DNA from: Opitutia bacterium Tous-C8FEB
GTDB taxonomy: Bacteria; Verrucomicrobiota; Verrucomicrobiia; Opitutales; Opitutaceae
Direction of reading: 5' to 3'
DNA length: 48,954 nucleotides
Assembly: GCA_002304435.1 (NCBI GenBank)
Contig: NEUZ01000004.1
Coordinates: 1-48,954 of the forward strand
Made by a program: the position numbers and the translations under genes. The stretch's first letter is position 1. Each line of letters opens with the position of its first letter. Under the pieces are notes generated by a model. The model was not told the origin of the DNA and ran no database searches. It worked only from the letters and a program-made list of their open reading frames with translations. Positions 1 through 48,954 of this stretch are shown here, in pieces.

Positions 1-170
1 TTCCGGGCGGCTGCCTCCTCGAGCAGTTTGCCGAACTCGGCGGACTTGGCGGAGGCGTGGGTGCGGACGTAGTCGGCGAAGGCCTGATCCTGCAGGGGCA
101 GGAGCTGGGCGCCCGCCCAGGCCAGCACGGCCACGGACAGGATCAGCTTCCACAGATTGCGTTTGAGCAT
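1..170 (-). CDS. secD: SecD, protein-export membrane protein (5' part only)
   Basis: The first 56 codons are visible; the gene runs off the left edge. SecD works with SecF and YajC beside SecYEG to drive late steps of protein export. The start ATG at 170 is followed by Met-Leu-Lys-Arg-Asn-Leu-Trp-Lys, then a hydrophobic segment (about residues 8-25) and a region with Pro-Leu-Gln-Asp. This matches the N-terminal membrane anchor of verrucomicrobial SecD or SecDF as I remember it. The gene lies 82 bp downstream of yajC on the same strand, the usual yajC-secD order, which supports the call more than the short sequence does. The periplasmic and RND-like domains are outside the window, so I cannot say whether SecF is fused. 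The sequence before the ATG reads GTACT. Confidence 0.75.
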   Translation of the reverse strand, partial: MLKRNLWKLILSVAVLAWAGAQLLPLQDQAFADYVRTHASAKSAEFGKLLEEAAAR

Positions 171-231
171 AGTACGTTTGGGTTGAAAAGGGAACGGGGG
201 CCCCGCCGGCCGGGGGCGAGGCGGGACGGGG

Positions 232-247
232 CCGGGCGAGCGCCCGG
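232..247 (-). other. GC-rich hairpin between yajC and secD
   Basis: A perfect inverted repeat, CCGGGCG and CGCCCGG with a 2-nt centre, lies 5 nt after the yajC stop codon and 62 nt before the secD start. There is no T-run, so it is not a classical intrinsic terminator. It could stabilise the yajC 3' end or partly attenuate secD transcription. GC-rich 7-bp arms also arise by chance in DNA of this composition. Confidence 0.3.
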
Positions 248-252
248 GGGCG

Positions 253-8815: not shown

Positions 8816-10435
8816 TCAGCCCCGCAGGAAGCGCGCCGCGAGCTCGCCGATCACCAGGCAGGTGGCATGCGTCTGCACACTCAGCAGAGTCGGCATAATG
8901 GAGGCGTCCGCCACCCGCAGCCCGTCCAGGCCGCGCACGCGCAACTCGGGGTCGACGACCGCGTCCGGACCGCGTCCCATCCGGCAAGTGCCGGCGGGAT
9001 GGTAGATCGTCCCGGAGGTCCGCAGGACGAACTCGCGCAGCCGCGCCGGCGAATCCTCCCCCTCCGCGGGCTCGGCCGCGGCGCCCCGCAACGCGTCGAA
9101 CGCGCGCGCGCGGCCGATCGCCAACCCTAGGCGCACGCCCTCGACAGCGATGGCGAGGTCGCGCTCCTCAGTGAAGTAATTCGCGCGGATCACCGGCGGC
9201 GCGAGCGGGTCCGCGGAGCGCAGGCTGACGGAGCCGCGGCTCTGGACGCGGGTGACGATGACGGAATAGGCCAGGGACGGATCCGGGGCGCTCAGGCCGC
9301 GCCCCACGGCGAACTGGATGTCGGGCGGGCCTCCGGCCGGACCCAGCCCGGAAAAGGCCAGCAGCCCAGCGGAGACCGCAGAACCCGGGAGCGGGACGCG
9401 GCCGGCCCAGCGCAGGCCGATGCGGGGATGGTCCTGCAGGTTGGCGCCGACGCCCGGCAACTCGTGGCGGACCGAGACGCCGGCGGCGCGGAGGGCCGCC
9501 GCGGGACCGATGCCTGACAGCAGCAGAAGCCGCGGCGAATCGATTGCCCCCGCGCACAGCAACACCTCACGGGCGGCGCGGACCGTGCGGACCGCCGCGA
9601 CGGCGCCAGGGCTGCCGTCGAGGTACTCGAGGCCGACGACGCGGGTGCCCTCGAGCAGCAGTCGGCGCACGTGGGCGTGCGGGCGCGCGGCGAGATTGGG
9701 TCGACCGAGTACCGGAGTCAGGAAGGCCGCCGCCGCGGACTGCCGCCGGCCGGCGCGGAGATGTTTCTGGTAGAAGCCGGCCCCGTTCTCGGGCCGCTCG
9801 GAATTGAAGTCCCAGCGGGGATCTGCCGCGAAACCGAGCCCGCGGCACGCCTCAAGGAAGGCGAGATGGCCAGCGTGCGGATCGTCCGTATCGCTCACCG
9901 CCACCGGCCCGCCCACGCCCCGCAGGGCAGAGGCGCCGCGACTATTGTCCTCCAGCGCGCGGAAGATCGGCTGGACCGCGGCGTAGGACCAGGCCGGGCC
10001 TGCCTCGCGCTCCCAAGCTGCGAAGTCGAGCGGGTGCCCGCGCACGTAGGCCGCCGCGCTAATCGCGCTCGATCCGCCGAAGCCGCGTCCCCGGGGCCAC
10101 TTCACCGAGCGGCCGCCCAGCGCGGGCTCCGGCTCAGTGGCGTAGTTCCAATCCGCCGCCGTCCCGAGCAAGGAGGTCCAGCGCCCGATGTCGGCGATCA
10201 GGGGATCATCCCCCCGGCCGCCCGCTTCGAGCAGCAGCACCCGCACCGCGGGATCGGCGGAAAGGCGGTTGGCGGCGACGCAGCCGCTCGAGCCGGCGCC
10301 GACGACGATGTAATCAAACTCCTCCGGCGCGGCCGCGCCAAGGGCCCGCGGCAGGACGGTAGCCGTGGTCCCCGCGGCGAGGGAGGCGCCCAGGAAGCGA
10401 CGACGGGAAAGGGCAGAACGGTGCATCGTGGTCAC
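8816..10435 (-). CDS. Tat-exported GMC family FAD oxidoreductase
   Basis: This GMC family flavoenzyme oxidises alcohols or sugars; the substrate is not evident. A twin-arginine signal (Ser-Arg-Arg-Arg-Phe-Leu-Gly, residues 10-16) suggests folded export to the periplasm. The FAD-binding motif Val-Val-Gly-Ala-Gly-Ser-Ser-Gly follows at 44-51. GMC signature 1 (Gly-Phe-Gly-Gly-Ser-Ser-Ala) and signature 2 (Gly-Ala-Ile-Asp-Ser-Pro-Arg-Leu) are present. The C terminus has a probable catalytic His in Tyr-His-Pro-Ala-Gly-Thr-Cys-Arg-Met-Gly and a second His in Gln-Thr-His-Ala-Thr. The GTG at 10435 overlaps the sulfatase stop as GTGA, which favours it; ATG 10426 is the alternative. The 539-residue length is normal. 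Coupling to a sulfatase suggests a role in breakdown of desulfated sugars or choline-like compounds, an inference only. Confidence 0.93.
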   Translation of the reverse strand: MTTMHRSALSRRRFLGASLAAGTTATVLPRALGAAAPEEFDYIVVGAGSSGCVAANRLSADPAVRVLLLEAGGRGDDPLIADIGRWTSLLGTAADWNYATEPEPALGGRSVKWPRGRGFGGSSAISAAAYVRGHPLDFAAWEREAGPAWSYAAVQPIFRALEDNSRGASALRGVGGPVAVSDTDDPHAGHLAFLEACRGLGFAADPRWDFNSERPENGAGFYQKHLRAGRRQSAAAAFLTPVLGRPNLAARPHAHVRRLLLEGTRVVGLEYLDGSPGAVAAVRTVRAAREVLLCAGAIDSPRLLLLSGIGPAAALRAAGVSVRHELPGVGANLQDHPRIGLRWAGRVPLPGSAVSAGLLAFSGLGPAGGPPDIQFAVGRGLSAPDPSLAYSVIVTRVQSRGSVSLRSADPLAPPVIRANYFTEERDLAIAVEGVRLGLAIGRARAFDALRGAAAEPAEGEDSPARLREFVLRTSGTIYHPAGTCRMGRGPDAVVDPELRVRGLDGLRVADASIMPTLLSVQTHATCLVIGELAARFLRG

Positions 10436-11982
10436 TCCGGGGCCTTCCGCCCGCCCTTGCGCGCGGGAGCCGGCGCAACGGTCGCGGCGTTGAGCTTCGC
10501 CTCCTGCGCCTTGAGCCAGGTGTCGTACGCCTTGTTCCCTCCCCCGCCGACATACGCGTACGCTTCTAGCTCCGCCGCGCGACCGAGGATTCGCGGGTCC
10601 TCGTCCTGCCGCAGCAGGGTAACGAGGCGCTGGCGCAGCTCCGCCATCGTCGTGCCGTGCGTCAGATCGTGGGCGAGGTTATTGACCCCGTGTGGGTCGC
10701 GGCGCAGGTCGTATAACTCCTCGGCCGCGCGCTTGCCGAAGGACAGATCATAAAAGTGGCCGCCGAGGGCCTTGATCACCTCCTTGGTCGGGCCGGGGTC
10801 GCAGTTACCGAAATCTGTCTCGGGGTTGCCCGCGGGCCAGCGCTCCGGGTGGAAGTTCCGGACGTAGAGGAAGTCGCGCGTGCGCAGCGCGCGCACCGGA
10901 TAGCCCGCGTTGCCGGGCCGGCCGAGGTCGTGGCGCTCCTTCCCCACGAGCATCTCGTCGCGGCCCTCCACCCACCCCGAGCCGGGCGCGCGAAGCAGCG
11001 CGGCTAGGCTGCGGCCCGTCATTTGCGGGTGCGCGGGTAGGCCTGCGAGCTCGAGGAACGTCGGGGCGAAGTCGCGCACGTTGATGAAGTCCTCGACCAC
11101 GCGGCCCGGGCGGATCGCCGCGCCCCAGCGCATCGCCAACGGCAGGTGGAACCCGTCCTCGTGGATCTGGCCCTTGACGTACGGGAAGGGCATCCCGTGG
11201 TCCGAGGTGACCACGACGAGGGTGTTCTCCAGTTCCCCTGCCGCCTCGAGCGCGGCGAGTACTCGGCCGAGGTGAGCGTCGGCCCACTCGACTTCGACCG
11301 CGTAATCCGCGAGGTCGTCCCGCACCGGGGTCACGTCCGGAAAGTAAGGAGGGACGGGAACGGCGGCGAGGTCCTTGCCGAGGCGGCGGCCCGAGCCCGG
11401 CTCGTAGGCACGGTGCGGCTCGTGGAAGCCCAACCAAAAGCAGAACGGCGCGCCGCGGGGGCGCCGGGAGAGGAACGTCTCGAAGTTCTTGGCGTAGTCC
11501 TTCCGGTTAATGCCCGTCGCCGGGACGGTCATCGTGTGCTCCTCAATCACCGGTCCGGCCGGGTTGCGCTCGCGGCCGGCGAGGGTCTTAAAGTCGCCCG
11601 GACCCCAGCCTTTGCCGCTGAGGCCCACGTGGTAACCGGCCTGCTCGAGCAGGTCCGGGTAGACGGCGAAGCCGGCGGGGAACATCCCGTTGTGCGAGAC
11701 TGCCTCGCGCAGTTGCCACGTGTTACGCCCGGTGAGGATGCTAGCGCGACAGGGACTGCACTTCGGGTTCGAGGTAAACGCGTTCCGGAAGAGCACGCCC
11801 TCGCGGGCGACGCGGTCGAAGGCCGGCGTGCGCAACCAGGTCGCGCCATAGGCGCCGGCATCGCGCCAGCCCCAGTCATCGTAGATGACGAACAGAATAT
11901 TGGGGCGCGCCGCGGGGGTCGCGGCCGCGGCAGCTAGCGGGAGCAGGACTGGAAGCAGGAAATGGCGGAAGAGCGGGAGCAT
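10432..11982 (-). CDS. Exported sulfatase (type I, CxPxR)
   Basis: This arylsulfatase-superfamily enzyme hydrolyses sulfate esters. A signal peptide (about residues 1-25) precedes Arg-Pro-Asn-Ile-Leu-Phe-Val-Ile-Tyr-Asp-Asp, the metal-binding opening of the fold. The catalytic cysteine that becomes formylglycine is Cys75 in Cys-Ser-Pro-Cys-Arg-Ala-Ser. Downstream, Thr-Ser-Asp-His-Gly and Gly-Lys-Glu-Arg-His supply further metal and sulfate ligands. The ATG at 11982 gives a clean signal peptide; the frame is open a little further upstream. The 516-residue length is normal. The C-terminal 40 residues (Lys/Ala/Pro-rich) are an unstructured tail. It is the first gene of a two-gene unit with the GMC oxidoreductase. 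No formylglycine-generating enzyme is seen in the window. The exact substrate cannot be read from the sequence. Confidence 0.93.
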   Translation of the reverse strand: MLPLFRHFLLPVLLPLAAAAATPAARPNILFVIYDDWGWRDAGAYGATWLRTPAFDRVAREGVLFRNAFTSNPKCSPCRASILTGRNTWQLREAVSHNGMFPAGFAVYPDLLEQAGYHVGLSGKGWGPGDFKTLAGRERNPAGPVIEEHTMTVPATGINRKDYAKNFETFLSRRPRGAPFCFWLGFHEPHRAYEPGSGRRLGKDLAAVPVPPYFPDVTPVRDDLADYAVEVEWADAHLGRVLAALEAAGELENTLVVVTSDHGMPFPYVKGQIHEDGFHLPLAMRWGAAIRPGRVVEDFINVRDFAPTFLELAGLPAHPQMTGRSLAALLRAPGSGWVEGRDEMLVGKERHDLGRPGNAGYPVRALRTRDFLYVRNFHPERWPAGNPETDFGNCDPGPTKEVIKALGGHFYDLSFGKRAAEELYDLRRDPHGVNNLAHDLTHGTTMAELRQRLVTLLRQDEDPRILGRAAELEAYAYVGGGGNKAYDTWLKAQEAKLNAATVAPAPARKGGRKAPE

Positions 11983-12178
11983 CGGGGAAATCAGGTGCGG
12001 ATCAGGCGCGCAGGTCATCGGCCAGCCGCAGCCGGACATTGGGGCGCGCGGGGCCAGGGAGGACGGCGAGGCGGGGAACGGACATCCGGCTCCCAGTCAG
12101 GCCGTCCATCGCCGCCAGTCGAGCCGCAAGTGCCGGCGCCCGCTTGCCCTCGGCCGCGCGGGACGCAAACGTCGAGCA
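11983..12178. other. 196-bp divergent intergenic region with a sulfatase-like short reading frame
   Basis: This is the longest gap between genes in the window. It separates the sulfatase (minus) from the M24 peptidase (plus) and should carry both promoters, but I see no convincing -35/-10 pair. On the minus strand an ATG at 12109 opens a 35-codon frame ending at 12002. Its last residues read Ala-Arg-Pro-Asn-Val-Arg-Leu-Arg-Leu-Ala-Asp-Asp-Leu, which resembles the start of sulfatase domains (Arg-Pro-Asn-Val-Val-Leu-Ile-Leu-Ala-Asp-Asp-Leu). It may be a remnant of a lost sulfatase or a coincidence. Confidence 0.35.
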
Positions 12179-13459
12179 ATGCCCCCAGCGTACCTTTCGG
12201 CCCGGCGCGAACGGCTGGCCGCCGCCCTCGCTCCCATCGACGCCCTGCTCGTGATCGGCGCCGGGGGACCGATCCCGCTGCCCGAAGGCAGCGACCAGAC
12301 CTACCCCTACCGCGCGCACGCCGAGTATGTGTTCACCGCGGGCGGCGATTGCGTCGGTGGGGTGATCGCCCACGACCCGCGGGAGGGCGCGGCCGGCTGG
12401 CGCAGTTTCGTGCCGCCCGTGACCGAGGCGGAACGGGTCTGGTGCGGGGCCCCGCCGCGGGAGGGCGAGGACATTGCCAGCTTCAACGCGTGGCGGAATG
12501 CGCGCGCCGGGCGGCGGATCGCCGCCCTCGGCGCCCCGGTCGCGGGCGTCCACGCCGACCCCGCTGCGACCGAGGCGGCCCGGCTGGCCTGCGCCGAAGT
12601 GCGCCGGCCGAAGGATCCCCACGAGCTCGAACTGATAGGCCAGGCCGTCCGCGCCACCCTCGCCGGCTACGCGCGGCTGCCGGAACTTATCCGCCCGGGC
12701 GTCACCGAGCGCTCGCTGCAGATCGAGCTCGAGGCCGCGTTCCAGCACGCGGGGGCGGACGGGACGGGCTACGGCACGATCGTCGGCGCCGGTCCGAACG
12801 CGGCCGTGCTCCACTTTGAGCCCTCCACACGCGCCGTGGCGGCCGGGGACTTCGTGCTCGTGGACGCGGGCGCCGAGGTGCACCGCTACGTGGCGGACGT
12901 CACCCGCACCTACGTCGCGGGCAAACCCACCGGCTTCCAGCGGGACCTGCACGCCGCGGTGCGGCAGGCCCAAGAGCGGGCCATCGCCCGATGCGTGCCG
13001 GGCGCGGAGTGGAAGCAGGTCCATCTCGCCGCCGCGGTGGACCTAACCGCGGGACTCGTCGGGATGGGCATCCTCCGCGGGCAACCGGAGTCGCTGGTCG
13101 AGCAGGAGGTCCACGCGCTCTTCTTCCCCCACGGACTCGGCCACCTGGTCGGGCTCGGCGTGCGCGACGCGAGCGGGCTGGCGCGCGGCCGAACCCGCGA
13201 TCCGCGGCCGAGCCTCCGCTCCCTGCGGATGGATCTGCCCCTGGCAGAGGGCTTCGTCGTGACGGTAGAGCCGGGCCTCTACTTCATCCCCGCCCTCCTC
13301 CAGGACCCGGCGCGGCGCGAGCGCCACCGCGAAACCGTGAACTGGAACCTCGTGGACACTCACCTCGCGATCGGCGGCGTCCGCATCGAGGACGACGTGC
13401 TGGTGCGGGCCAGCGGTCCCGAGGTACTCACCGCAGGGATTCCCAAAGCGCTGGACTAG
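12179..13459 (+). CDS. M24 metallopeptidase, Xaa-Pro aminopeptidase-like
   Basis: This pita-bread-fold enzyme probably removes N-terminal residues ahead of proline, like PepP or prolidase, in the cytoplasm. An N-terminal aminopeptidase P domain (about 1-140) contains Tyr-Pro-Tyr-Arg-Ala-His-Ala-Glu-Tyr. All five dinuclear metal ligands are visible: Asp229 and Asp240 (Val-Asp-Ala-Gly to Ala-Asp-Val-Thr-Arg), His318 (Pro-His-Gly-Leu-Gly-His), Glu364 (Val-Glu-Pro-Gly-Leu) and Glu404 (Val-Arg-Ile-Glu-Asp-Asp). It is 426 residues long, normal for the family. The ATG at 12179 lies right before the domain; longer readings run antisense through the intergenic region. The gene stands alone, diverging from the sulfatase and converging on potA with a 27-bp gap. 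PepP is the closest family by motif layout, but prolidase activity cannot be excluded. Confidence 0.92.
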   Translation: MPPAYLSARRERLAAALAPIDALLVIGAGGPIPLPEGSDQTYPYRAHAEYVFTAGGDCVGGVIAHDPREGAAGWRSFVPPVTEAERVWCGAPPREGEDIASFNAWRNARAGRRIAALGAPVAGVHADPAATEAARLACAEVRRPKDPHELELIGQAVRATLAGYARLPELIRPGVTERSLQIELEAAFQHAGADGTGYGTIVGAGPNAAVLHFEPSTRAVAAGDFVLVDAGAEVHRYVADVTRTYVAGKPTGFQRDLHAAVRQAQERAIARCVPGAEWKQVHLAAAVDLTAGLVGMGILRGQPESLVEQEVHALFFPHGLGHLVGLGVRDASGLARGRTRDPRPSLRSLRMDLPLAEGFVVTVEPGLYFIPALLQDPARRERHRETVNWNLVDTHLAIGGVRIEDDVLVRASGPEVLTAGIPKALD

Positions 13460-13486
13460 GCAGGTCCGCCGGCGCGGTTCGGGAAC

Positions 13487-14575
13487 TCATCCCCCGGGCA
13501 GAAACCAGAGGTGGTCGGCGGGAATCCCGATCGCGACCTCCGCGCCGACCGCGAAGTCCGCGGCATCTCCCTCCCCGCCCGGATGCACGGCGGTCAGCGT
13601 CAACCCGCCTCCTTCGCGCAGCGCGACCTGCAGGTGCTCGCGGTCCCCGCGAAATTCCACCGCGGTGACAAGGGCCCGGCCCGCCGGCCGCTCTTCGCCG
13701 CGCCACGGGCGGAGCACCACCTGTTCCGGGCGAACGACCGCGCGCGTGGCCCCCCGTCCCGCGGGCCAACGCTCCGCGGGGACGTCAAGTTCCAATCCCC
13801 CGGCCAGCCGCACCGCGATCCGACCCGCCGATCCGCCGATGCGTTCGGCCGGGAGGAGGTTGGCGTGCCCGACGAAATCGGCCACGAAGTCCGTCGCGGG
13901 CCGGTGGTAGATCTCGCGGGGCGGCCCGACCTGCTCAAGCGCGCCCGCGTTGACCACTGCGATCCGGTCGCTGAGCGCGAGGGCCTCGTCTTGGTCGTGG
14001 GTCACCAGCACGAAGGTCATTCCCAGGCGCCGCTGGAGAGCCTGCAGCTCGGCGCGCATCGCTTGTCGCAGCTTCGCGTCGAGCGCGGAGAAGGGCTCGT
14101 CGAGCAGCAGCACCTGCGGCCGGCAGACCACCGCGCGCGCAACCGCGACGCGCTGGCGCTGGCCCCCGGAGAGCTCGTGGGGGAAGCGTTCCCCGAGCCC
14201 CTCGAGCGAGACGAGCGCGAGGGCGTCGTCCACGCGGCGGCCGAGTTCCGCGGGGGGCACGCCGCGCATCCGCAGGCCGAAGGCAACGTTGCCGCGCACG
14301 GACAGATGCGGGAACAGGGCGTAGCCCTGGAAGACTTGGTTCACCGGCCGGCGATGCGGCGGGATGCCGGTGATGTCCTCCCCGCCCAGCAGAATCCGCC
14401 CGGTAGTCGGCGCCTCGAAGCCGGCGATCATCCTAAGGAGCGTGGTCTTCCCGCAGCCGGAGGGGCCGAGCAGCGTCAGAAACTCGCCGGCGGCGATCGT
14501 CAGGCGGACCTCACGCACGGCGGTGAAGGCCCCGTAGCGCTTACCCACGCCGTCGAGCTCGATCGAGGCGCTCAT
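13487..14575 (-). CDS. potA: PotA, polyamine ABC transporter ATPase
   Basis: This is the ATP-binding subunit that powers spermidine/putrescine uptake. The 362 residues start with an ABC domain: Walker A Gly-Pro-Ser-Gly-Cys-Gly-Lys-Thr-Thr (37-45), Q-loop Val-Phe-Gln-Gly-Tyr-Ala-Leu-Phe-Pro-His, signature Leu-Ser-Gly-Gly-Gln-Arg-Gln, Walker B Val-Leu-Leu-Leu-Asp-Glu-Pro and the D-loop Ser-Ala-Leu-Asp-Ala. The H-loop His follows in Val-Thr-His-Asp-Gln. A C-terminal TOBE domain starts near 275. The start ATG overlaps the potB stop as ATGA, so it is translated with potB. It is last in the potC-potD-potB-potA unit. The family also contains iron and sulfate ATPases; the PotD-like binding protein next door makes polyamines the likely substrate. 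Confidence 0.93.
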   Translation of the reverse strand: MSASIELDGVGKRYGAFTAVREVRLTIAAGEFLTLLGPSGCGKTTLLRMIAGFEAPTTGRILLGGEDITGIPPHRRPVNQVFQGYALFPHLSVRGNVAFGLRMRGVPPAELGRRVDDALALVSLEGLGERFPHELSGGQRQRVAVARAVVCRPQVLLLDEPFSALDAKLRQAMRAELQALQRRLGMTFVLVTHDQDEALALSDRIAVVNAGALEQVGPPREIYHRPATDFVADFVGHANLLPAERIGGSAGRIAVRLAGGLELDVPAERWPAGRGATRAVVRPEQVVLRPWRGEERPAGRALVTAVEFRGDREHLQVALREGGGLTLTAVHPGGEGDAADFAVGAEVAIGIPADHLWFLPGG

Positions 14576-15450
14576 CCGCGGAGGGCGCCGCGCGGCCGCA
14601 GGGCCCGCAGCACCAGTTGGGAAACCAGAAAGAGCCCGAGCAGCGCCACGCCCAAGGCGGCCCCAAAGGGCCAGTCCCGCGCTTGGAGAAACTGGTTCTG
14701 GATGACGTTGCCGATGAGCGGGACGCGCGCGCCGCCGAGGAGGTCAGTAACGGCGAACATCGCCACGGCGGGCACGAAGACGAGGGTGACTCCCGCGGCG
14801 ATACCCGGGAGGGTCAAGGGCAGGATCACCGTGGGAAATACGCGCCACGGGCCAGCGCCGAGGTCGTGCGCCGCCTCGATCAGCGCGCCGTCCAGTTTCT
14901 CGACGCTGGCGTACACCGGCAGAATTAGGAATGGCAGGTAGGAATAGACCAGCCCGGTCACCACGGCCGCGGGCGTGTAGAGCAGCCCGAGCGGGGCCCA
15001 CGCGGGCTGGAGCCAAGCCACCAACGCGTTCAGCAGCCCTTCCTCGCGGAGGATCGCCATCCACGCGTAGGTGCGGACGAGGAAGCTGGTCCAGAACGGC
15101 ACCATCACCAGCAACAGGAGTAACTCCCGCACGCGCGGCGCGGCCCGCGCGAGATGGTACGCGACTGGGTAACCGATGAGCAGGCAGAGCCCGGTCGTGA
15201 GGGCGGCGAACCCGAGCGAGCGCAGGAAGATGCGCAAGTAGACCGGATCCAGCAGTCGGGCGTAGTTCTCTAGCGAGAAGCCCCAGAGCACTTGGCCGAA
15301 CTCGTCGCGCTCCCCGAGGCTACAGCCGAGCAGCAGCAGGGCGGGCACCACGACGAAAAGCGCGAGCCACGCGAGCAGCGGCGCCAGCAGGAGCCAGGCC
15401 AAGGTGCCGGGCCGGGCGCCCGGGTCGCGCGCAACGGGTTCGGGGGTCAA
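14572..15450 (-). CDS. potB: PotB, polyamine ABC transporter permease
   Basis: This is one of the two inner-membrane permeases of the polyamine importer. It is 292 residues with six hydrophobic segments, the first at about 18-42. The cytoplasmic EAA loop that docks the ATPase reads Leu-Ile-Glu-Ala-Ala-His-Asp-Leu-Gly-Ala-Gly-Pro-Trp near 189-201. The Asn-Tyr-Ala-Arg-Leu-Leu-Asp stretch near 61 is typical of PotB. The best start is a TTG at 15450; no ATG or GTG lies between it and the first membrane segment. This start is 13 bp after the potD stop. The 3' end overlaps the potA start by 4 bp. Confidence 0.92.
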   Translation of the reverse strand: MTPEPVARDPGARPGTLAWLLLAPLLAWLALFVVVPALLLLGCSLGERDEFGQVLWGFSLENYARLLDPVYLRIFLRSLGFAALTTGLCLLIGYPVAYHLARAAPRVRELLLLLVMVPFWTSFLVRTYAWMAILREEGLLNALVAWLQPAWAPLGLLYTPAAVVTGLVYSYLPFLILPVYASVEKLDGALIEAAHDLGAGPWRVFPTVILPLTLPGIAAGVTLVFVPAVAMFAVTDLLGGARVPLIGNVIQNQFLQARDWPFGAALGVALLGLFLVSQLVLRALRPRGALRG

Positions 15451-15463
15451 GGGCCGGGGCGGC

Positions 15464-16498
15464 TCACTTGGCGCTCTTCAGGTCGGTCACCAGCCGGTCG
15501 ATGTCGGCGGCGGCGCGGCCGATGTCGCGGAAGCTCTCGAGCTTCCCGCCCTGCGGGTAGCTGGCCGGGTTCGCGAGCTCGTCCGGCGTGAGGAGGCGGC
15601 GGGCGGCGAGGTTGGGGTTGGTGTACGGGAACGCCGCCGAGATCTGGCGCGAGACCTCGGGCCGGAGGATGTAGTCGATGAACCGGTGGGCCTCGGCGAC
15701 GTTCCGCGCCCCGGCCGGGATGGCGAGCACGTCGACAAACTGGTGTGCCCCCTCGGCCGGCAGGATGTACTGGAACTTACGGTTCTCGCGCCAGAGCAGC
15801 GCCGCCTCGCCGCTCCATACGACCCCAAGGTCAACGTCGCCGTTGAGCAGTGCCGTCTTGGGGCTGTCGGAGTCGAAGACCTTCACCAATTTAATCCACT
15901 CCGCGAGGAGCGGACGGACGCGCGCGAGGCTGGCGGCGTCGACCGTATTGACCGGCTGCCCGAGCGCGTAGAGGGCCCAGGAGACGAGCTCGCGGCTGTC
16001 GTTGACCACGACGATGCGGTCCCGGTGGGCGGCCTGGAAGACTTCGCGGTAGCCGCGCACGGGCGTTTTCACCTTCTCGGTGTTCACCACGATGCCGACG
16101 CTACCGCTCATATACGGAACCGTATAACGTCCCTCGGGGTCGTGCGCGCGGCCGGTGAACTCGGGCGCTAGATTACCCAACCCGGCCAGGCGGGCGCGGT
16201 CGAGCGGCTGCAGCAGCTTGCGGCGGATCATCGCCTCCGCGGTGTAATCGCTCGGCTGCACGAGGTCGTAGCGGCCGCCGCCCGCGACGAGCTTGGCGAG
16301 CATCTCCTCGTTCGAGGAGTAGGTCTCGAAGTTGACCTTGATGCCGGTCTCGCGGGTAAAGCCCTCGAGGACGGGCTGGGGAACGTACTCGGACCAGCCG
16401 AACAGGTTGAGCTGGCCAGCACCGCGGGCGGCGAGCGGGAGGAGCGCGAGCAACAGGGCGGCGAGCCGCCCCGGGAGGTTGAGGGTCTTGAATTTCAT
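15464..16498 (-). CDS. potD: PotD, polyamine-binding periplasmic protein
   Basis: This solute-binding protein delivers spermidine or putrescine to the PotBC permease. It is 344 residues with a cleavable signal (about 1-27: Lys-Phe-Lys then Leu-rich, ending Ala-Arg-Gly-Ala-Gly). The mature protein begins Asn-Leu-Phe-Gly-Trp-Ser-Glu-Tyr-Val-Pro, the classical PotD/PotF opening where Trp and Tyr contact the polyamine. Further family features are Thr-Tyr-Ser-Ser-Asn-Glu-Glu, Tyr-Asp-Leu-Val-Gln-Pro-Ser-Asp-Tyr, and Val-Pro-Tyr-Met-Ser-Gly-Ser-Val-Gly-Ile. The ATG at 16498 gives the signal peptide; longer readings run into potC antisense. It sits between potC and potB, an order that differs from the enterobacterial potABCD. 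Confidence 0.94.
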   Translation of the reverse strand: MKFKTLNLPGRLAALLLALLPLAARGAGQLNLFGWSEYVPQPVLEGFTRETGIKVNFETYSSNEEMLAKLVAGGGRYDLVQPSDYTAEAMIRRKLLQPLDRARLAGLGNLAPEFTGRAHDPEGRYTVPYMSGSVGIVVNTEKVKTPVRGYREVFQAAHRDRIVVVNDSRELVSWALYALGQPVNTVDAASLARVRPLLAEWIKLVKVFDSDSPKTALLNGDVDLGVVWSGEAALLWRENRKFQYILPAEGAHQFVDVLAIPAGARNVAEAHRFIDYILRPEVSRQISAAFPYTNPNLAARRLLTPDELANPASYPQGGKLESFRDIGRAAADIDRLVTDLKSAK

Positions 16499-16518
16499 CG
16501 GGGAGAGGTCGAGGGAGG

Positions 16519-17334
16519 TCAGCGGGCGCCGCGGCGGAGGTAGGCCGCGAAGGCGACTCCGGCGAGCGTGACCAGCAGGAAGAGTGCCGAAAGGGCGTTG
16601 AGCACGGGATTGAGTCCCACCTTGGCCAGCCCAAAGACCTTGAGCGGCAAGGTGGCGGAGGCCGCCGAGGTGGTGAAATACGTCACAATCAGCTCGTCCC
16701 AAGAAAGCAGGAACGCCATCAGCCCGCCGGCGAGGATGGCAGGCCGCAGCGCCGGAAGGATGACGTGGCGGAAGGCGCCCCACGGCGTGGCCCCGAGGTC
16801 CCGCGCCGCCTCCTCCAGCGCGGGATCGAGCCCCTGCAGGCGTGCCCGGACCGCGACGAGCACAAAGGGAAAGCTGAAGGTGACGTGGCCGATGATCACC
16901 GTGATGAACCCGAGCCCGACGCCGGCGAGTGCGAAGAGGATGAGGAGGCTGATCCCAAGGAGGATCTCGGGCATCACCATCGGCAGGTTGACCAGGGACT
17001 CGATGAGATCGCGGCCCGGGAATCGATAGCGGTGCAGGAGCCAGGCCCCCGACGTCCCCAGCACCACCGAAAGGAGCGTTGTCGCCGTGGCCACGACGAG
17101 GCTATTGAGGGCGGCCCGCTGGAGCGGCGCCTGGTGCAGGAGCTCCGCATACCAGCGGCCGCTGAACCCCTCCCACGCGACGCCGAGGCGGGCTGAATTG
17201 AACGAATAGACCGCCAGCACGATGACCGGTAGGTACAGGAAGAGGAGCACCAGCCCCGTCCAGCCCCGCAGGCCCGCCTGCAACAGGCGGGAGCCAGCGG
17301 CCGGGGAAAGCAGCGAAGGGGGCGGGGCGGCCAT
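16519..17334 (-). CDS. potC: PotC, polyamine ABC transporter permease
   Basis: This is the second permease of the importer and the first gene of the operon. It is 271 residues with six predicted membrane segments. The EAA loop reads Leu-Glu-Glu-Ala-Ala-Arg-Asp-Leu-Gly-Ala-Thr-Pro-Trp near 174-186, and Leu-Val-Asn-Leu-Pro-Met-Val-Met-Pro-Glu-Ile-Leu-Leu-Gly is typical of PotC. The ATG at 17334 gives normal length; the frame is open to 17436 but without PotC-like sequence. The start codon follows directly after an 8-bp-arm palindrome (17337-17358), which may control transcription or ribosome access. The gene ends 20 bp before potD. Confidence 0.93.
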   Translation of the reverse strand: MAAPPPSLLSPAAGSRLLQAGLRGWTGLVLLFLYLPVIVLAVYSFNSARLGVAWEGFSGRWYAELLHQAPLQRAALNSLVVATATTLLSVVLGTSGAWLLHRYRFPGRDLIESLVNLPMVMPEILLGISLLILFALAGVGLGFITVIIGHVTFSFPFVLVAVRARLQGLDPALEEAARDLGATPWGAFRHVILPALRPAILAGGLMAFLLSWDELIVTYFTTSAASATLPLKVFGLAKVGLNPVLNALSALFLLVTLAGVAFAAYLRRGAR

Positions 17335-17336
17335 AT

Positions 17337-17358
17337 CCGGAATCCAGCAAGATTCCGG
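17337..17358 (-). promoter_or_regulatory. Palindrome directly upstream of potC
   Basis: CCGGAATC and GATTCCGG form a perfect inverted repeat around a 6-nt centre. It ends 2 nt before the potC ATG, and the only weak GGA ribosome-binding element lies inside one arm. It could be a repressor operator or an mRNA hairpin that blocks translation of the polyamine importer. The regulator is not identified. Confidence 0.45.
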
Positions 17359-17390
17359 CCGCGGGGCGGAGGCAAGCGCGAAGCCCCCGC

Positions 17391-17406
17391 ATTTCAGGCG
17401 TGAAAT
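17391..17406. promoter_or_regulatory. Second small palindrome in the potC/DUF1080 intergenic region
   Basis: ATTTCA and TGAAAT flank GGCG as a perfect 6-bp-arm inverted repeat, AT-rich against the background. It lies 32 bp from the potC-proximal palindrome and 48 bp before the DUF1080 start at 17455. It may be an operator for either divergent unit. The rest of 17335-17454 shows no clear promoter. Confidence 0.3.
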
Positions 17407-17454
17407 CCGCCACGCTTGGCGCGAGTCTCTCTCCACCCTCCCCCCACCCTACCG

Positions 17455-18129
17455 ATGAAACTGCTTCGCCTGCTCCCCTTGCTCTGCCTCGCTGCCCTGC
17501 CCTTGTCCGCCGCCGACGGCTGGGTAAACCTCTTCAACGGCCGCGACCTCGAAGGCTGGGAGCAGCACAGCGGCACCGCCAAGTACCGCGTCGAGGAGAG
17601 CGCCATCGTGGGCACTACCGTACTCAAAACCGGCAACAGCTTCCTCTGCACCAAGCGCGCCTACGGCGATTTCATCCTTGAGCTCGAATTCAAGGTCGCC
17701 CGCAACATGAACTCGGGCATCCAGTTCCGCAGCGAATTCTACACCCAGGAGACCGAGAAGGAGATCAACGGCAAGAAACGGAAATTTCCCGCCGACCGCG
17801 TCTTCGGCTACCAGTACGAGATTGATCCTTCCGACCGCGCGTGGACCGGCGGCGTGTACGACGAGGCCCGCCGTGGCTGGCTCGCCGACCTCAAAGACAA
17901 GCCCGCCGCCCAAAAGGCCTTCCGCCAGGGCGAATGGAACAAGGTACGCATCGAGTGCCGCGGCGACCGCATCCAGACCTGGATCAATGACGTGCCCGCC
18001 ACTGACTTCCGCGACGCGATGACCCCGCGCGGCATCATCGCCCTGCAGGTCCACGGCATCGGCGACGGCAAGAAGAACAAGCCCGGCGAGGAGATCCGCT
18101 GGCGCAACATCCGGCTGAAGGAGCTGTGA
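17455..18129 (+). CDS. Exported DUF1080 (3-keto-disaccharide hydrolase-like) protein
   Basis: DUF1080 proteins have a concanavalin-like jelly-roll fold; some members hydrolyse 3-keto-glycosides. The gene codes for 224 residues with a signal peptide (about 1-19, ending Leu-Ser-Ala-Ala-Asp). The mature part opens Gly-Trp-Val-Asn-Leu-Phe-Asn-Gly-Arg-Asp-Leu-Glu-Gly-Trp, the family signature. Later family features are Asn-Ser-Gly-Ile-Gln-Phe-Arg-Ser, Tyr-Gln-Tyr-Glu-Ile-Asp-Pro-Ser, and Gly-Ile-Ile-Ala-Leu-Gln-Val-His. ATG 17455 is the start that gives a clean signal peptide. Its stop overlaps the following hydrolase gene as GTGA, so the two are probably made together for sugar breakdown outside the cytoplasm. 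Enzymatic activity of this member is inferred, not shown. Confidence 0.9.
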   Translation: MKLLRLLPLLCLAALPLSAADGWVNLFNGRDLEGWEQHSGTAKYRVEESAIVGTTVLKTGNSFLCTKRAYGDFILELEFKVARNMNSGIQFRSEFYTQETEKEINGKKRKFPADRVFGYQYEIDPSDRAWTGGVYDEARRGWLADLKDKPAAQKAFRQGEWNKVRIECRGDRIQTWINDVPATDFRDAMTPRGIIALQVHGIGDGKKNKPGEEIRWRNIRLKEL

Positions 18130-19031: not shown

Positions 19032-19089
19032 CCGACCCACTAGGGCTTGCCGCTGCTGCGGCGCTCTGGTTCGGTCCGAGCCTCTCTCC

Positions 19090-20790: not shown

Positions 20791-20800
20791 GGCGCGCGCG

Positions 20801-22381: not shown

Positions 22382-22390
22382 GGCCGCACC

Positions 22391-23304: not shown

Positions 23305-23364
23305 GCGGAGCCTGATCCGACGGTTCCCCGCCGCCACCGCGCGACGCGGGTTTCCTCCGGCGCG

Positions 23365-28095: not shown

Positions 28096-28110
28096 AGTCT
28101 GGGCAGACTA
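28095..28110 (-). promoter_or_regulatory. Palindrome overlapping the M29 peptidase start codon
   Basis: On the minus strand TAGTCTG-CC-CAGACTA is a perfect inverted repeat whose last base is the A of the start ATG. The placement, and the outer TAGT/ACTA, match the lexA operator 25 kb away, but the inner bases differ, so the same regulator is not implied. A TTGCGG-N18-TTAGTC pair upstream would place the -10 element on the repeat and give a nearly leaderless mRNA. The regulator is unknown. Confidence 0.45.
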
Positions 28111-28159
28111 ACGACCGGGCGCGCGGGCGCCGCAAGGGCAAACGCGGCCCGCGGACCGA

Positions 28160-29374: not shown

Positions 29375-29388
29375 CGGTGCGAGCGCGA

Positions 29389-29426
29389 AACCTAAGGTTG
29401 ACGCCTCCGGCAGCGTAAACAGTTTT
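29389..29426. promoter_or_regulatory. Overlapping divergent promoters of lpxK and the class V aminotransferase
   Basis: For the plus strand TTGACG (29398-29403) is followed after 17 nt by AGTTTT (29421-29426), a good -35 and a weak -10. For the minus strand TTTACG (29419-29414) and TTAGGT (29395-29390) are 18 nt apart. A small inverted repeat AACCT-A-AGGTT (29389-29399) overlaps both. Assigned by eye. Confidence 0.35.
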
Positions 29427-29463
29427 CGCTCGCCCGGCATCCCGCCGGACGCCCTCCCGCACT

Positions 29464-30555: not shown

Positions 30556-30635
30556 GCCACGGACGACGCGGAACCCGAGCGGAAACAAAAGTAGGTCTTG
30601 CACTTCGCGGGCGCGCCGGTACCGGGTCGCGTCCC

Positions 30636-33434
<2,799 letters not shown>

Positions 33435-33508
33435 TCTCGGCCGCGCCGGAGATTACCCTTGCCCCGAGCAGCACGCCTCCGGACGCTGGCGGGGAACCTT
33501 TCACGTCC

Positions 33509-34459
33509 ATGATCGTCACCACCGCGCAGCTGTTCCAGCACGCCTACGGCAAATACGCCGTTGGCGCGTACAACATCAACAACGCCGAGCAGGCGATGGG
33601 CCTCTTCCGGGGCTGCATTGAGTCGCAGGCTCCCTTCATCATCCAGATTTCGAAGGGCGCGCGGAAGTACACCGACAAGCGGATGCTCGAGGCGATCATC
33701 CGCGCCGCGGGGGACATCTTCCCGGAGGCGATCTTCGCCGTCCACCTGGACCACGGTGACGAGGAGACTTGCTACGACTGCATCAACTCGGGCTTCTTTA
33801 GCTCGGTGATGATCGACGCCTCGCACGATCCCTTCGACCAGAACGTGGCCATCACCCGCCGCGTGGTCGAGAAGGCCCACGCCAAGGGCATCTCGGTCGA
33901 GGCCGAGCTCGGGATGCTCGGGGGCGTCGAGGAGGACATCAAGGTCGAGGAAGGCCACGCCTGCCTGACTGATCCCGAGGAGGCCAAGGAGTTCGTGGCG
34001 CGTACCGGCTGCGATTCGCTCGCCTGCGCCATCGGCACCTCGCACGGCGCCTTCAAGTTCAAGGGCAAGCAGTCGCTCCACTTCGACGTGCTGCAGAAGA
34101 TCAAGGACCGCCTGCCCGGCTTCCCGCTGGTGATGCACGGCAGCTCCAGCGTGCCGAAGGACGAGGTCGACCGGATCAACCGCGCCGGCGGCCAGATCAA
34201 GGATTCGATGGGCGTGGATCCCAACGAGTACCTGCCCGCGGCGCGCCTCGGGGTGACGAAGGTCAACATCGACACGGATGGGCGACTGGTCTGGACCCGC
34301 GTGCACCGCGAGTTCTTCCGCGACAAGCCCGCCGAGTTCGACTTCCGCCCGCCGGGCAAGGTCTTCATCGACGAGTACGCCAAGTTCATCGGCAGCCGTA
34401 ACCAGCTGCTCGGGAGCGCCGGCCAACTCGCCAGCCTGCGCGCCAGCCTCGGTCGCTAA
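33509..34459 (+). CDS. fba: Class II fructose-bisphosphate aldolase
   Basis: This zinc-dependent aldolase cleaves fructose 1,6-bisphosphate or joins triose phosphates. The 316 residues begin Ile-Val-Thr-Thr-Ala-Gln-Leu-Phe, then Val-Gly-Ala-Tyr-Asn-Ile-Asn-Asn. The metal and catalytic motif Val-His-Leu-Asp-His-Gly-Asp (His79, Asp81, His82) is intact. Gly-Thr-Ser-His-Gly-Ala-Phe-Lys supplies a second zinc His, and His-Gly-Ser-Ser-Ser-Val-Pro a third. The short length fits the group B type. Start ATG 33509 is preceded by GGGGAACC, a possible ribosome-binding region, and is a CATG site. It follows topB by 74 bp. Tagatose-bisphosphate aldolases are related, but with pgi in the same window a glycolytic role is the best inference. 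Confidence 0.93.
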   Translation: MIVTTAQLFQHAYGKYAVGAYNINNAEQAMGLFRGCIESQAPFIIQISKGARKYTDKRMLEAIIRAAGDIFPEAIFAVHLDHGDEETCYDCINSGFFSSVMIDASHDPFDQNVAITRRVVEKAHAKGISVEAELGMLGGVEEDIKVEEGHACLTDPEEAKEFVARTGCDSLACAIGTSHGAFKFKGKQSLHFDVLQKIKDRLPGFPLVMHGSSSVPKDEVDRINRAGGQIKDSMGVDPNEYLPAARLGVTKVNIDTDGRLVWTRVHREFFRDKPAEFDFRPPGKVFIDEYAKFIGSRNQLLGSAGQLASLRASLGR

Positions 34460-46114: not shown

Positions 46115-47712
46115 CGCCGCCCCCCGATCCGCTCGCGGAACCGTTGTCCGATCGCCGCCAGTTCCTCCCGCCCCTCCAGGCGCAGCACCCAGAGGAGGAT
46201 GACGTAGAACCCGGCCGCGCAGCCGATGATAAGGACCAGGCCGGCCGCATCCGCCGTCAGCCCCGAGGGAGCTAGGCGCTGCCACCAGTGGTGGATCGCC
46301 CATACCACGCCGGCCATTGTGGCGGTAGCGAGGAGGATCTTGCCCAGATCGCGGCGCAGATGGTGGAACGCCAGGCCCGGACGGCGGCGCGCCAGAATCA
46401 GCTGCAGGTGCACGGCCTGGATGGCCAGCGCCACGTTACTCGCCACCGCCAGCCCGAGCGTCCCCCACTTGCCCATCAGGATCAGGCTGAGGCCAAGGTT
46501 GACGATGAAGCTGAGGGCGGCCGCGCGTACCGGCGTAGCGGTGTCCTTCTCCGCGTAGAAAGCGCGCAGGACCAACGTGGTAAAGGCGAGGAAGGGCAGC
46601 CCCGCCGCGAAGATGGCGAGCACGGGTCGCATCGCCGCGGTGTCGGCGGGGCCAAACTCGCCCCGTTGAAACAGCACGCGCACGATCGGTTCGGCGAGCA
46701 GCGCAAGCCCCGCCGCCGCGGGCAGGTTGATCACGAGGATCAGCCGCATCCCCTTCCGGTAGGAAGCCGCGAAGGCATCCCACTCCCCGGCCGCCGCGTG
46801 CCGGGCGATCAGCGGGAACACCACCGTCGAGACCGCCAGCGTGAACACCCCGATCGGCAGTTCCATCAGCCGCGTCGCCAGATTGAGGATCGCGACCGCC
46901 GAGTCGTTGAGGGACAGCCCCACGAGCCGCGAGACGGAGATGTTGATCAGGTGGATCGCCGAGCCAAAGACGGTCGGCGCCATCAGGCGCAGGATCTGCC
47001 GCAAACCGTCATCGACCCCGAGCCCAAACTGCGGTCGCCACCCCTCGCGCCGCAGCGCCAAAGCGGGCACGACCAGCTGCAGCAGTCCGCCCAACAGGGT
47101 GCCCGCGCACAGCCAGAGCATCCGGCCCTCCGGGCTCGCCGCCCAACCGCCGTACGCGGCGCCGCCGAGGCAGCCGATCATCGCGAGGTTCAGCCACACC
47201 GGCGAAAGCGCCGGTTCGAGGAAGCGGTTGAGCGTCTGGAGCGCCGCGCTGAAGACCGCCGCGAGGCAGATGCAGACCAAGTAAGGGAAAAGGATCACCG
47301 CGAGATCCGCGGCCACCAGCCAACGCTCCATCGCCGGGGCCACCTCCGTCCAGCGCCCCCCTCCGCCCGCAAGCCACCGCGGTACGAACGCCAGCACCAG
47401 CATCCCGCCTGCCACGATGCCGCCCGTGACCACCAGCAGCCAGCTGGCGACGCGGTTCACCAGCAGGAAAGCCGCCTCGCGCTGCGCCGCGCGGATCTCC
47501 TGCTGCAGCGTGGGCACCAGGGCCGCCGTGAGCGCGCCTTCCCCGAGCAGGCGCCGGAACAGGTTCGGCAGGGTGAAGGCGGTGTAGAACGCCGAGGCCA
47601 GCGCCTCGAGGCCGAACACCGCCGTCACCAGCGCGTCGCGCACCAGCCCGAGACAGCGCGACGCCAGGGTGGCGCCCGCCACCACCCCGATGTTCAGGAA
47701 GCTCTTGGACAC
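46111..47712 (-). CDS. murJ: MurJ, lipid II flippase
   Basis: MurJ moves the peptidoglycan precursor lipid II across the inner membrane. The 533 residues have about 14 membrane segments, the MOP-superfamily layout. The N terminus Ser-Arg-Cys-Leu-Gly-Leu-Val-Arg-Asp, then Phe-Thr-Leu-Pro-Asn-Leu-Phe-Arg-Arg-Leu-Leu-Gly-Glu-Gly-Ala-Leu, is the family signature with the essential Arg residues. Arg-Gly-Glu-Phe and Arg-Ala-Phe-Tyr-Ala occur later as expected. The GTG at 47712 gives the standard start; the frame is open for 12 more codons upstream. It begins 49 bp after the preceding gene and overlaps the SBF-like gene. Presence of MurJ implies peptidoglycan synthesis. Confidence 0.95.
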   Translation of the reverse strand: MSKSFLNIGVVAGATLASRCLGLVRDALVTAVFGLEALASAFYTAFTLPNLFRRLLGEGALTAALVPTLQQEIRAAQREAAFLLVNRVASWLLVVTGGIVAGGMLVLAFVPRWLAGGGGRWTEVAPAMERWLVAADLAVILFPYLVCICLAAVFSAALQTLNRFLEPALSPVWLNLAMIGCLGGAAYGGWAASPEGRMLWLCAGTLLGGLLQLVVPALALRREGWRPQFGLGVDDGLRQILRLMAPTVFGSAIHLINISVSRLVGLSLNDSAVAILNLATRLMELPIGVFTLAVSTVVFPLIARHAAAGEWDAFAASYRKGMRLILVINLPAAAGLALLAEPIVRVLFQRGEFGPADTAAMRPVLAIFAAGLPFLAFTTLVLRAFYAEKDTATPVRAAALSFIVNLGLSLILMGKWGTLGLAVASNVALAIQAVHLQLILARRRPGLAFHHLRRDLGKILLATATMAGVVWAIHHWWQRLAPSGLTADAAGLVLIIGCAAGFYVILLWVLRLEGREELAAIGQRFRERIGGRR

Positions 47713-47761
47713 CCTGCCACTCTGCGGAGCAGCGCCGCCGGCCCGCAAGACTTAGCCGGGC

Positions 47762-48910
47762 TCAGCGGGCAGAAGCGCGCAGGCGGCTCTCCCACCGATC
47801 CAGAACCTCGCTCGTCGCCGCCTCGAGCGTGCGGCCGTCCGCCCAGTCCCGTTCCCACTGGGCGACGAGGACCTCCCGGCGCCGATCGGCCTCCGGCCCC
47901 ACCCCCAGCGCGAAAGCCTCGGCGAGAGTCAGCGCTGCGTTGCGATAAAACGGGTGCATCGCGGCGACGCTCCGGCCGAGGTCCGCGCCGCGGCGCGCCA
48001 ACTCCGCCGCCACCCACGGCTCAGTCCGCCGGGCTAAGACTTCCGAAAACGGGACCAACCGGTCCGCCCCTGCCTCATCGGCGAACACAAAGCGCGCCAG
48101 TGACGCGAGGAATTCCCTCGCCTCCTCCGCCTCGAGGCCAGGCAGCACCCGCTGCCGCACGTGATACTGCCAGCCGGTCTGCCACCAGAGTTCCCTTTCG
48201 TCCGGCCCCCCGAAGCGGCCGACGTAGGCCTGCGCCAGCATCGCCTGCGGATCCCCCCCGGCCAGCAACCGGGCGAGCAGCCGCGGCCATTCCGCACCCC
48301 GACCGGACTCCGCGAGCAGGAAGGTGAACAGCCACATCGCCCCCGCGTCATCCCCGCCGGATCCGGAAGCACCCGGCGGACCGTCAAGCAGGCGGACAAT
48401 CTCCGGCGGCGACCGGCGCCGCGAGGCCTCGCGCAACGCGTCGAGCCGGGCCCCGTTAACCCGCGTTTCCCACCACCCGGTGGCACCGAGCACCAGCCAA
48501 GAAGCGACCACCGGCTGCATCGTCGCCCCGTGCAGGGCCACGCCGAGGCGGTGCAGGAGCGCGTCGACCAGCGCCACCCGGAGCGCCCGGCCCTCCTGCG
48601 CGCGCGGCCCCAGCCAGAGGGTCACCAGCCCGCCGGTTTCCACCGCGACGTCGTGCGTCGCGGGCGCACCCGGCGTCCCGGCCGGCACGACCCGCACAAA
48701 CACCGGCGAGGGGAACGCTGGAGGCAGGCCCAGCGGCGCCGCGAGCACGCGCCACCCCTCTTCCGCCGCGGCCGCGACGCGGTGCGCCACGGCGGCATCC
48801 ATCGAAGCTACCTCGAAGCGGCCCGCGAGGCTGGCGGCCAAAACCGGCGCGGCACCGCGCAGCGGCAGGACGGCCAGCAGGCCGAGCGCGAGCCACAGGA
48901 TGCAGTTCAC
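47762..48910 (-). CDS. Exported protein of unknown function
   Basis: I do not recognise this 382-residue protein. It has a signal peptide or membrane anchor (about 1-26) and no other membrane segment. The central region is rich in Ala, Arg, Leu and Trp and contains Ala-Leu-Leu-His-Arg-Leu-Gly and Trp-Leu-Val-Leu-Gly-Ala-Thr-Gly-Trp-Trp-Glu, an arrangement that recalls degenerate gluzincin-type peptidase domains, but no His-Glu-x-x-His is present. The C-terminal part is helical (Ala-Leu-Thr-Leu-Ala-Glu-Ala-Phe-Ala-Leu-Gly). The GTG at 48910 overlaps the preceding stop codon as GTGA, which fixes the start and implies coupling to the gene at the right edge. Confidence 0.75.
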   Translation of the reverse strand: MNCILWLALGLLAVLPLRGAAPVLAASLAGRFEVASMDAAVAHRVAAAAEEGWRVLAAPLGLPPAFPSPVFVRVVPAGTPGAPATHDVAVETGGLVTLWLGPRAQEGRALRVALVDALLHRLGVALHGATMQPVVASWLVLGATGWWETRVNGARLDALREASRRRSPPEIVRLLDGPPGASGSGGDDAGAMWLFTFLLAESGRGAEWPRLLARLLAGGDPQAMLAQAYVGRFGGPDERELWWQTGWQYHVRQRVLPGLEAEEAREFLASLARFVFADEAGADRLVPFSEVLARRTEPWVAAELARRGADLGRSVAAMHPFYRNAALTLAEAFALGVGPEADRRREVLVAQWERDWADGRTLEAATSEVLDRWESRLRASAR

Positions 48911-48954
48911 GGCCGGCGCAACCGGAGCGTGGACCCGGCGACCTCCAGCTCCCG
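48907..48954 (-). CDS. C-terminal end of an unidentified gene
   Basis: Only the last 15 codons and the stop are inside the window: Arg-Glu-Leu-Glu-Val-Ala-Gly-Ser-Thr-Leu-Arg-Leu-Arg-Arg-Pro. The TGA overlaps the GTG of the next gene, which is the reason for calling it. Too short to identify. Confidence 0.55.
   Translation of the reverse strand, partial: RELEVAGSTLRLRRP

Follow-up and report, generated by a model that had tools for sequence, protein, structure and literature searches.

The window considered here is the whole of one contig of 48,954 nucleotides, NEUZ01000004.1 of Opitutia bacterium Tous-C8FEB (Opitutaceae), and the feature in question is the four-letter palindrome CATG, which has been nearly removed from it. 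The contig is number 34 of a metagenome-assembled genome (MAG), G000, which has 2,172,063 bases in 96 contigs and is 70.31% complete. An exhaustive count gave eight CATG sites and no further ones; these are the eight that a preliminary description of this DNA had listed, all at the right positions and none missed. The ilvD protein of the window is 99% and 98% identical to those of two lake and pond MAGs of Opitutae/Opitutaceae, L001 and L002, which places the organism in Opitutaceae, Verrucomicrobiota; the second of the two is used below as the sister sequence. The contig and its CATG sites, given without strand, are as follows.

1..48954, contig G000:C34, depleted of CATG along its whole length, 8 sites against 90.4 expected
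8866..8869, inside an open reading frame (ORF) at 8816-10435 (minus strand), GMC-oxidoreductase-like by family match
17706..17709, inside an ORF at 17416-18129 (plus strand); CATG in sister L002 too
18806..18809, inside an ORF at 18126-19031 (plus strand); sister L002 has GATG
19089..19092, across the ilvD start codon (19090); CATG in L002 and in all four outgroups that align at this place
29703..29706, Cys-Met codon pair; CATG in L002 too
29880..29883, Cys-Met codon pair; CATG in L002 too
30635..30638, start codon of topB (ATG at 30636); CATG in L002 too
33508..33511, ATG at 33509 within the frame 33311-34459, which only the preliminary description labels fba

The starts of ilvD and topB, at which the preliminary description had placed two of the sites, agree with the ORFs and with hidden Markov model (HMM) positions, the frame from 29325 matching topB from residue 438-439 onward. 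The two Cys-Met pairs also lie where it had put them.

CATG in the window and in its genome

How far below chance are eight sites? Base composition alone predicts 129.9, which bears out the earlier figure of about 130, a first-order Markov model 119.5 and a second-order Markov model 90.4, while 100 dinucleotide shuffles of the window gave a mean of 121.5 (standard deviation 10.6). Under the second-order model, the strictest of these, the ratio of observed to expected (O/E) is 0.088, with a Poisson probability of eight or fewer sites of about 10^-28. The depletion is specific. The lowest of the 15 other four-base palindromes in the window is CTAG, with 31 copies against 46 expected (O/E 0.67); 17 of these copies lie in the first 19 kb, where the preliminary description had spoken of more than a dozen. 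GTAC is found 93 times against 119.5 (O/E 0.78) and GATC 301 times against 347 (O/E 0.87). Equal depletion of these two words, which the preliminary description had set against its own idea, did not occur: neither is depleted like CATG.

The depletion is also genome-wide. A sample of 328,954 bases of G000, made up of the window and another 14 pieces of 20 kb each, contained 114 CATG against 610.2 expected (O/E 0.187), the lowest ratio of all 256 tetranucleotides, the next being CTAA at 0.475. The second-order Markov comparison that had been proposed earlier thus put the window far below expectation, and the ratios of both samples lie under 0.78, the threshold of under-representation for avoidance of Type II sites.

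Codon choice carries the same mark, as the preliminary description had supposed. In 33 ORFs of the window, taken from rough ORF calls, C is the last base of only 4 of the 190 codons that precede an internal ATG, whereas it closes 7,348 of the 15,509 codons overall. Before a codon starting with G, histidine is written CAC 148 times and CAT 3 times; elsewhere the counts are 201 and 92.

The leftover CATG sites of G000 occur in clusters. One lies in an element with integrase, DUF3854 and HipA/HTH genes (L204:1-8000, on G000:C8), where the 10 CATG compare with 16.4 expected (0.61); in the final 9 kb of L204 the count is 1, with 16.9 expected (0.06). CATG is thus at present tolerated in the element.

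Local clusters of CATG were also seen in stretches L198, L199, L202 and L206 of G000, in which the genes do not look mobile by eye. Import by recombination from relatives with normal CATG is a possible origin of these clusters.

The branch of loss and the family Opitutaceae

To see when and in which direction CATG changed, we aligned the window with L002 and with 30 outgroup loci. Two further features are needed for this comparison.

9026..30780, no strand, stretch alignable to sister L002 at 87.7% identity, used to polarise CATG loss
19090..20790, plus strand, ilvD, with 8 positions at which L002 has CATG and the window TATG (7) or GATG (1)

Over the 21,678 aligned bases there are 32 CATG in L002 and 6 in the window, and the two sequences share 5 of them at the same places. 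Among 738 CATG words taken from the outgroups, which are not independent since the outgroups share sites, 9 are retained in the window and 241 in L002. Control words of the outgroups are retained about alike in window and L002: 210 and 237 for TGCA, 148 and 147 for ACGT, 167 and 180 for AGCT, 66 and 68 for GTAC, 686 and 660 for TCGA, and 239 and 301 for GATC, the least even of them. At each of the eight ilvD positions 29 or 30 outgroups could be aligned, and CATG is found in 22 to 30 of them. Most of the loss therefore fell on the branch of the window, after its split from L002. The sister itself is somewhat low, and both L001 and L002 are intermediate, with 6 CATG against 13 expected and 32 against 50.

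The CATG sites of L002 were changed in the window in 27 of 32 cases, against 57 of 191 for TGCA, ACGT and AGCT pooled, a hazard ratio of 5.2. This ratio depends on the choice of controls, since GTAC, which stood outside the pool, was changed at 20 of 39 sites. The spectrum of loss is mixed: the 27 changes comprise 13 of the kind C>T or G>A, 7 transversions of an outer base, 5 inner transitions and 2 others, so that the losses are not confined to the C>T and G>A (13 of 27) which decay of 5-methylcytosine (5mC) would leave. The neighbouring words in excess in the window are GATG (1.52) and CATC (1.40), ahead of TATG (1.28) and CATA (1.13). These many kinds of substitution, together with a loss about fivefold faster than that of the three pooled control palindromes, make selection against the site the likely cause, and not deamination of methylated cytosine.

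On a wider scale we scanned 252 Opitutaceae genomes for SSCATGSS and, as a control, for SSGTACSS. G000 has the lowest SSCATGSS density of all, 47 per Mb, against a family median of about 487 per Mb. The five lowest genomes (G000, G009, G010, G007 and G021, with 47-141 per Mb) all belong to one genus, and in stretches of 46-61 kb from G010, G007 and G009 the O/E of CATG is 0.31, 0.44 and 0.33. The avoidance is thus supported as genome-wide, directed at one palindrome, specific to a lineage and recent, and the kinds of substitution seen point to selection against a site in double-stranded DNA, as a CATG-specific nuclease would be expected to leave.

GTAC in relatives of the window

The control word gave a result of its own. 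SSGTACSS falls below 10 per Mb in 58 of the 252 genomes, spread over 21 of 49 genera; 7 genomes have none and 15 have at most one. Eleven genera contain both such GTAC-poor genomes and genomes above 100 per Mb, and no genome of the 252 combines SSCATGSS below 200 with SSGTACSS below 30 per Mb. When GTAC was counted in all contexts in stretches of some of these genomes, G069 had 1 against 176.8 expected, G066 0 against 109.9, G045 0 against 96.9 and G182 0 against 20.6. G173 is a single contig of 4.0 Mb with 100% completeness, and 400 kb of it (L415-L434) held 1 GTAC against 656.7 expected. Here tyrosine after codons ending in G is written TAT 194 times and TAC never, and otherwise TAC 1,595 and TAT 563 times. 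The sole GTAC falls within what may be a coding frame, and its surroundings match no RNA family.

A stretch of G018 had 6 GTAC against 52.7 expected. All six lie within 7 kb (L229:1-7000, G018:C23) and the next 13 kb has none.

Restriction genes are usually mobile. Around Eco57I-type methylase and restriction genes, however, GTAC occurs 0 times against 206.3 expected in 22 stretches from 19 GTAC-poor genomes, so in these genomes even usually mobile genes are free of GTAC. The corresponding counts elsewhere are 10 against 70.0 in 7 intermediate stretches and 113 against 152.4 in 11 normal ones. In a set of 73 genomes, each of the 17 GTAC-poor ones matches one or more methylase families, unlike the CATG-poor genomes discussed below, and methylases of the Eco57I type occur more often when GTAC is scarce (in 50 of 58 GTAC-poor genomes, against 78 of 143). 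Both facts weigh against a nuclease working without methylase in the case of GTAC.

Which of these enzymes could be responsible for GTAC loss? The D12 and N6/N4 methylases are poor candidates, most of their clusters (43 proteins compared) mixing GTAC-poor and GTAC-normal genomes; D12 methylases are enriched in GTAC-poor genomes without being universal there (11 of 17, against 14 of 56). C5 methylases have no association (10 of 17, against 23 of 56). Among 40 stretches (L375-L414), which were picked for Eco57I-type hits and are not a random sample, 23 carry an XhoI-type endonuclease of one BLAST cluster adjoining an Eco57I-type methylase of about 550 residues. All three of these endonucleases run against Pfam matched PF04555, the XhoI family, and one that was queried matched no solved structure. 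They fall into several groups with about 27-49% identity between groups. XhoI recognises CTCGAG. As the pairs are also common to GTAC-poor and GTAC-normal genomes, they are not the GTAC agent; one endonuclease is 97% identical in G255 and G186, one of which is GTAC-poor and the other GTAC-normal. In the remaining stretches of the 40 the methylase is sometimes without a recognised partner, and no common partner gene was seen by eye. An example of the XhoI-family pair and a different, compact pair from G069 are given here.

L398:2314-3045 and L398:3070-4731, both minus strand, XhoI-family endonuclease and Eco57I-type methylase
L262 (G069:C18), plus strand, gamma-type restriction-modification pair: endonuclease 656-1585 (309 residues, Type II endonuclease by PADLOC), methylase 1579-3081 (500 residues)

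The L262 pair sits in an AT-richer stretch (GC 0.455). Its endonuclease is present in 1 of the 252 genomes, and the pair therefore does not explain a loss of GTAC across the family.

A recurring cassette was noticed in G173, G259, G202 and G179 (L409:734-5530, L410, L411 and L412), in which an Eco57I-type methylase of about 528 residues is joined by a protein of about 846 residues. A neighbour of about 214 residues, present in three of the four genomes, was considered as the endonuclease; by eye it is a methylase-like fragment and not evidently an endonuclease. All four genomes are under the family median in GTAC. We also considered TnpA-REP, which acts on GTAG words, and rejected it for GTAC loss, because GTAC is merely a mutated substrate in the part of that work drawn on here (PMC8266576).

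The agent of CATG loss and known systems

We looked for the CATG agent in the five CATG-poorest MAGs, G000, G007, G009, G010 and G021, whose completeness values, sorted by size, are 70, 73, 89, 93 and 95%. None of the five had a match at E<=0.001 to the D12, N6/N4, C5 or Eco57I methyltransferase families; G015, the sixth in the genus, had one weak D12 match (24 bits). All four families are missing from 5 of 5 CATG-poor genomes and from 1 of the 22 other members of the genus (Fisher 7e-5), a count that sets aside weak N6/N4 matches (E above 1e-7) and becomes 0 of 22 if they are counted. A coding-pattern scan for catalytic motifs, with (D/N)PP(Y/F) in G000 and NPP(Y/F) in G007, G009 and G010, gave 37 sites in the first and 49 (48 distinct) in the other three. 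When the long frames were read by eye, the methylase-like ones looked like housekeeping enzymes only, resembling PrmC, PrmB, RsmD and RlmJ. A model of NlaIII/IceA-like endonucleases matched 0 of the 252 Opitutaceae genomes, but its control was silent as well. The search for CATG-specific methyltransferases or endonucleases that the preliminary description had suggested thus came back empty for the four methylase families in the five MAGs and, with that silent control, for the endonuclease. Plasmids are often missing from MAGs, and for this reason a current CATG system may still exist. The agent has been lost, is unbinned, or works without a methylase; the earlier statement that it is elsewhere or lost stands, with the last option added to it.

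The footprint of a CATG-specific nuclease is the best reading of the loss seen in the window. The preliminary description had reached the same idea from avoidance of a single palindrome, and it is strengthened by the genome-wide extent, the specificity, the recent loss on one branch, the fact that the five CATG-poorest genomes belong to one genus, the contrast between the integrase element and the later part of its stretch (0.61 against 0.06) and a spectrum that fits selection, but not by a CATG restriction system, which was not found in the families and MAGs just named. As to the kind of nuclease, we give a probability of about 0.5 to an orthodox restriction-modification system of Type II that has since been lost or was left out of the bins. 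On this reading an enzyme that cuts both strands at CATG, most likely the endonuclease of such a system, would have been active in the lineage after the split from L002, from which the window differs at about 12% of nucleotides. Any CATG that was imperfectly protected would then have carried a small cost, and for that reason synonymous and non-coding substitutions removing CATG would have been fixed faster than neutral ones. The system would since have been lost, or would lie on DNA absent from the MAGs. The data show how specific, widespread and recent the losses are, their direction and their mixed spectrum; that the agent was a nuclease, and that a methylase accompanied it, we infer.

Several observations weigh against the orthodox system. 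Neither a CATG methylase nor a CATG endonuclease came to light in the searches described, and all five CATG-poor genomes are without the four methylase families, as is 1 of the 22 other members of the genus, a pattern confounded by the fact that the five are incomplete MAGs whose assemblies count among the genus's six smallest. In small samples of G010, G007 and G009 either TTAG or CTAA is lower than CATG. The clusters of CATG among genes that do not look mobile mean that recent arrival does not explain all residual sites in G000. Finally, a CATG system need not bring avoidance, as is indicated by H. pylori, which has a CATG methylase and for which a CATG O/E of 1.25 is given (PMC5700931, PMC3849833).

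A nuclease without any methylase, for which self would be the absence of the site, so that the genome would stay almost devoid of CATG and foreign DNA entering the cell would be cut, is unlikely. It would account for the missing methylase families (5 of 5 against 1 of 22) and for the outcome of the catalytic-motif search, in which no frame read among the 37 sites of G000 and the 49 of G007, G009 and G010 suggested another methylase acting on DNA, and the loss of GTAC in relatives far exceeds ordinary avoidance. However, CATG is not lethal now, since its ratio is 0.61 in the integrative element of G000 and 0.31-0.44 in the samples of G007, G009 and G010; moreover, no such nuclease was identified, and the MAGs may be without plasmids. 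A broader form of the same idea, that some Opitutaceae lineages mark self by the absence of a word, with a nuclease cutting GTAC (CATG in the clade of the window) and the chromosome kept free of it, seems to us rather improbable. If it were true, only DNA without the word could settle, and even the usually mobile restriction genes would be free of GTAC. Pressure from outside, through a CATG nuclease of phages, plasmids or competing cells, would also fit chromosomal bins in which the searched methylase families have no match. No carrier was seen, although no search for one was made, and the enzyme of a lytic phage would probably exert little selection on hosts that are dying anyway, so that we regard this source as quite improbable.

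Explanations that need no DNA nuclease fare worse on the same data. Mutational decay, in which 5mC within CATG deaminates to give TATG or CATA, or mismatch repair is biased, could claim the 13 of 27 changes that are C>T or G>A, and a preference for T in codon choice at these places. Since the 14 other changes are of different kinds, the enrichment of neighbouring words is highest for GATG and CATC and the C5 family is unmatched in the five CATG-poor genomes, such decay is largely refuted and highly improbable. Pressure on CAUG in RNA, from a ribonuclease that recognises this word or from translation (for example if out-of-frame starts are avoided), gains something from the fact that CATG includes ATG and that at least two of the eight surviving sites are start codons. 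But ATG is affected only when C precedes it, GATG being enriched, and the junction of a histidine CAT with G is avoided too; CATG also reads as a perfect palindrome in DNA, and most relatives in the family are far richer in it. We find an RNA-level or translational cause hardly credible. Base composition, codon bias or an assembly artefact might be suspected in DNA of 71% GC, in which words containing ATG are rare. This is refuted: the Markov and shuffle controls account for composition, the orthologous alignments have substitutions and no gaps at the sites, and GTAC and GATC are near normal in the window.

Among the matches listed from open-licence literature (titles and the beginnings of abstracts), there was no report that Verrucomicrobia or Opitutaceae avoid GTAC or CATG. 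The near-extinction of GTAC across the family lifts the interest above that of a single case of site avoidance. Since the GTAC state can switch from one species to the next within a genus (11 genera contain both extremes), Opitutaceae offer a natural experiment on the speed, completeness and agent of clearing a word, and on whether a cell can live with a nuclease and no modification. In practice, vectors without CATG or GTAC may do better in these bacteria.

Restriction sites are usually avoided only mildly. Here CATG stands at about a tenth of expectation, and GTAC in the sample of one relative at a single copy against about 657. The CATG footprint is thus of a known kind and unusually extreme. 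Avoidance of Type II sites, which can persist as a vestige after the system is lost, is established (Rusinov et al. 2015, PMC4687349). As here, it concerns one short palindrome genome-wide, and relatives may share the depletion without a system being found. In contrast to the threshold of 0.78 used in that source, the O/E values here are 0.09-0.19; further differences are that the present clade has no match to the four methylase families and that the loss is resolved along a branch between near relatives.

The NlaIII and HpyI (IceA) systems recognise CATG, the very word depleted here. Their CATG methylases are D12 enzymes, and we take PF05315 to cover NlaIII. Unlike these systems, G000, G007, G009, G010 and G021 have no D12 match. 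In H. pylori CATG is not avoided (1.25, PMC3849833), unlike in the clade of the window. A different likeness is offered by the PabI family of GTAC restriction glycosylases, known from Helicobacter, Campylobacter and Pyrococcus (PMC10273834, PMC4615327; excerpts). The 2023 review gives its range in the abstract as Helicobacteraceae, Campylobacteraceae and a few archaea, and "Verrucomicrob" does not occur in its text (PMC10273834); the 2015 paper adds Brachyspira, Mycoplasma and Mucispirillum (PMC4615327). The same paper describes M.PabI as a gamma-type methylase, and for H. pylori a GTAC O/E of 0.02 is given in the excerpt of PMC3849833. PabI hosts are thus nearly without GTAC, as are the 58 of 252 Opitutaceae genomes with fewer than 10 SSGTACSS per Mb and G173 with its 1 against 656.7. 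The likeness rests on the scarcity of GTAC, with the higher frequency of Eco57I-type methylases in GTAC-poor genomes as a possible second point; it bears on the GTAC-poor relatives, while the CATG loss of the window lies outside it.

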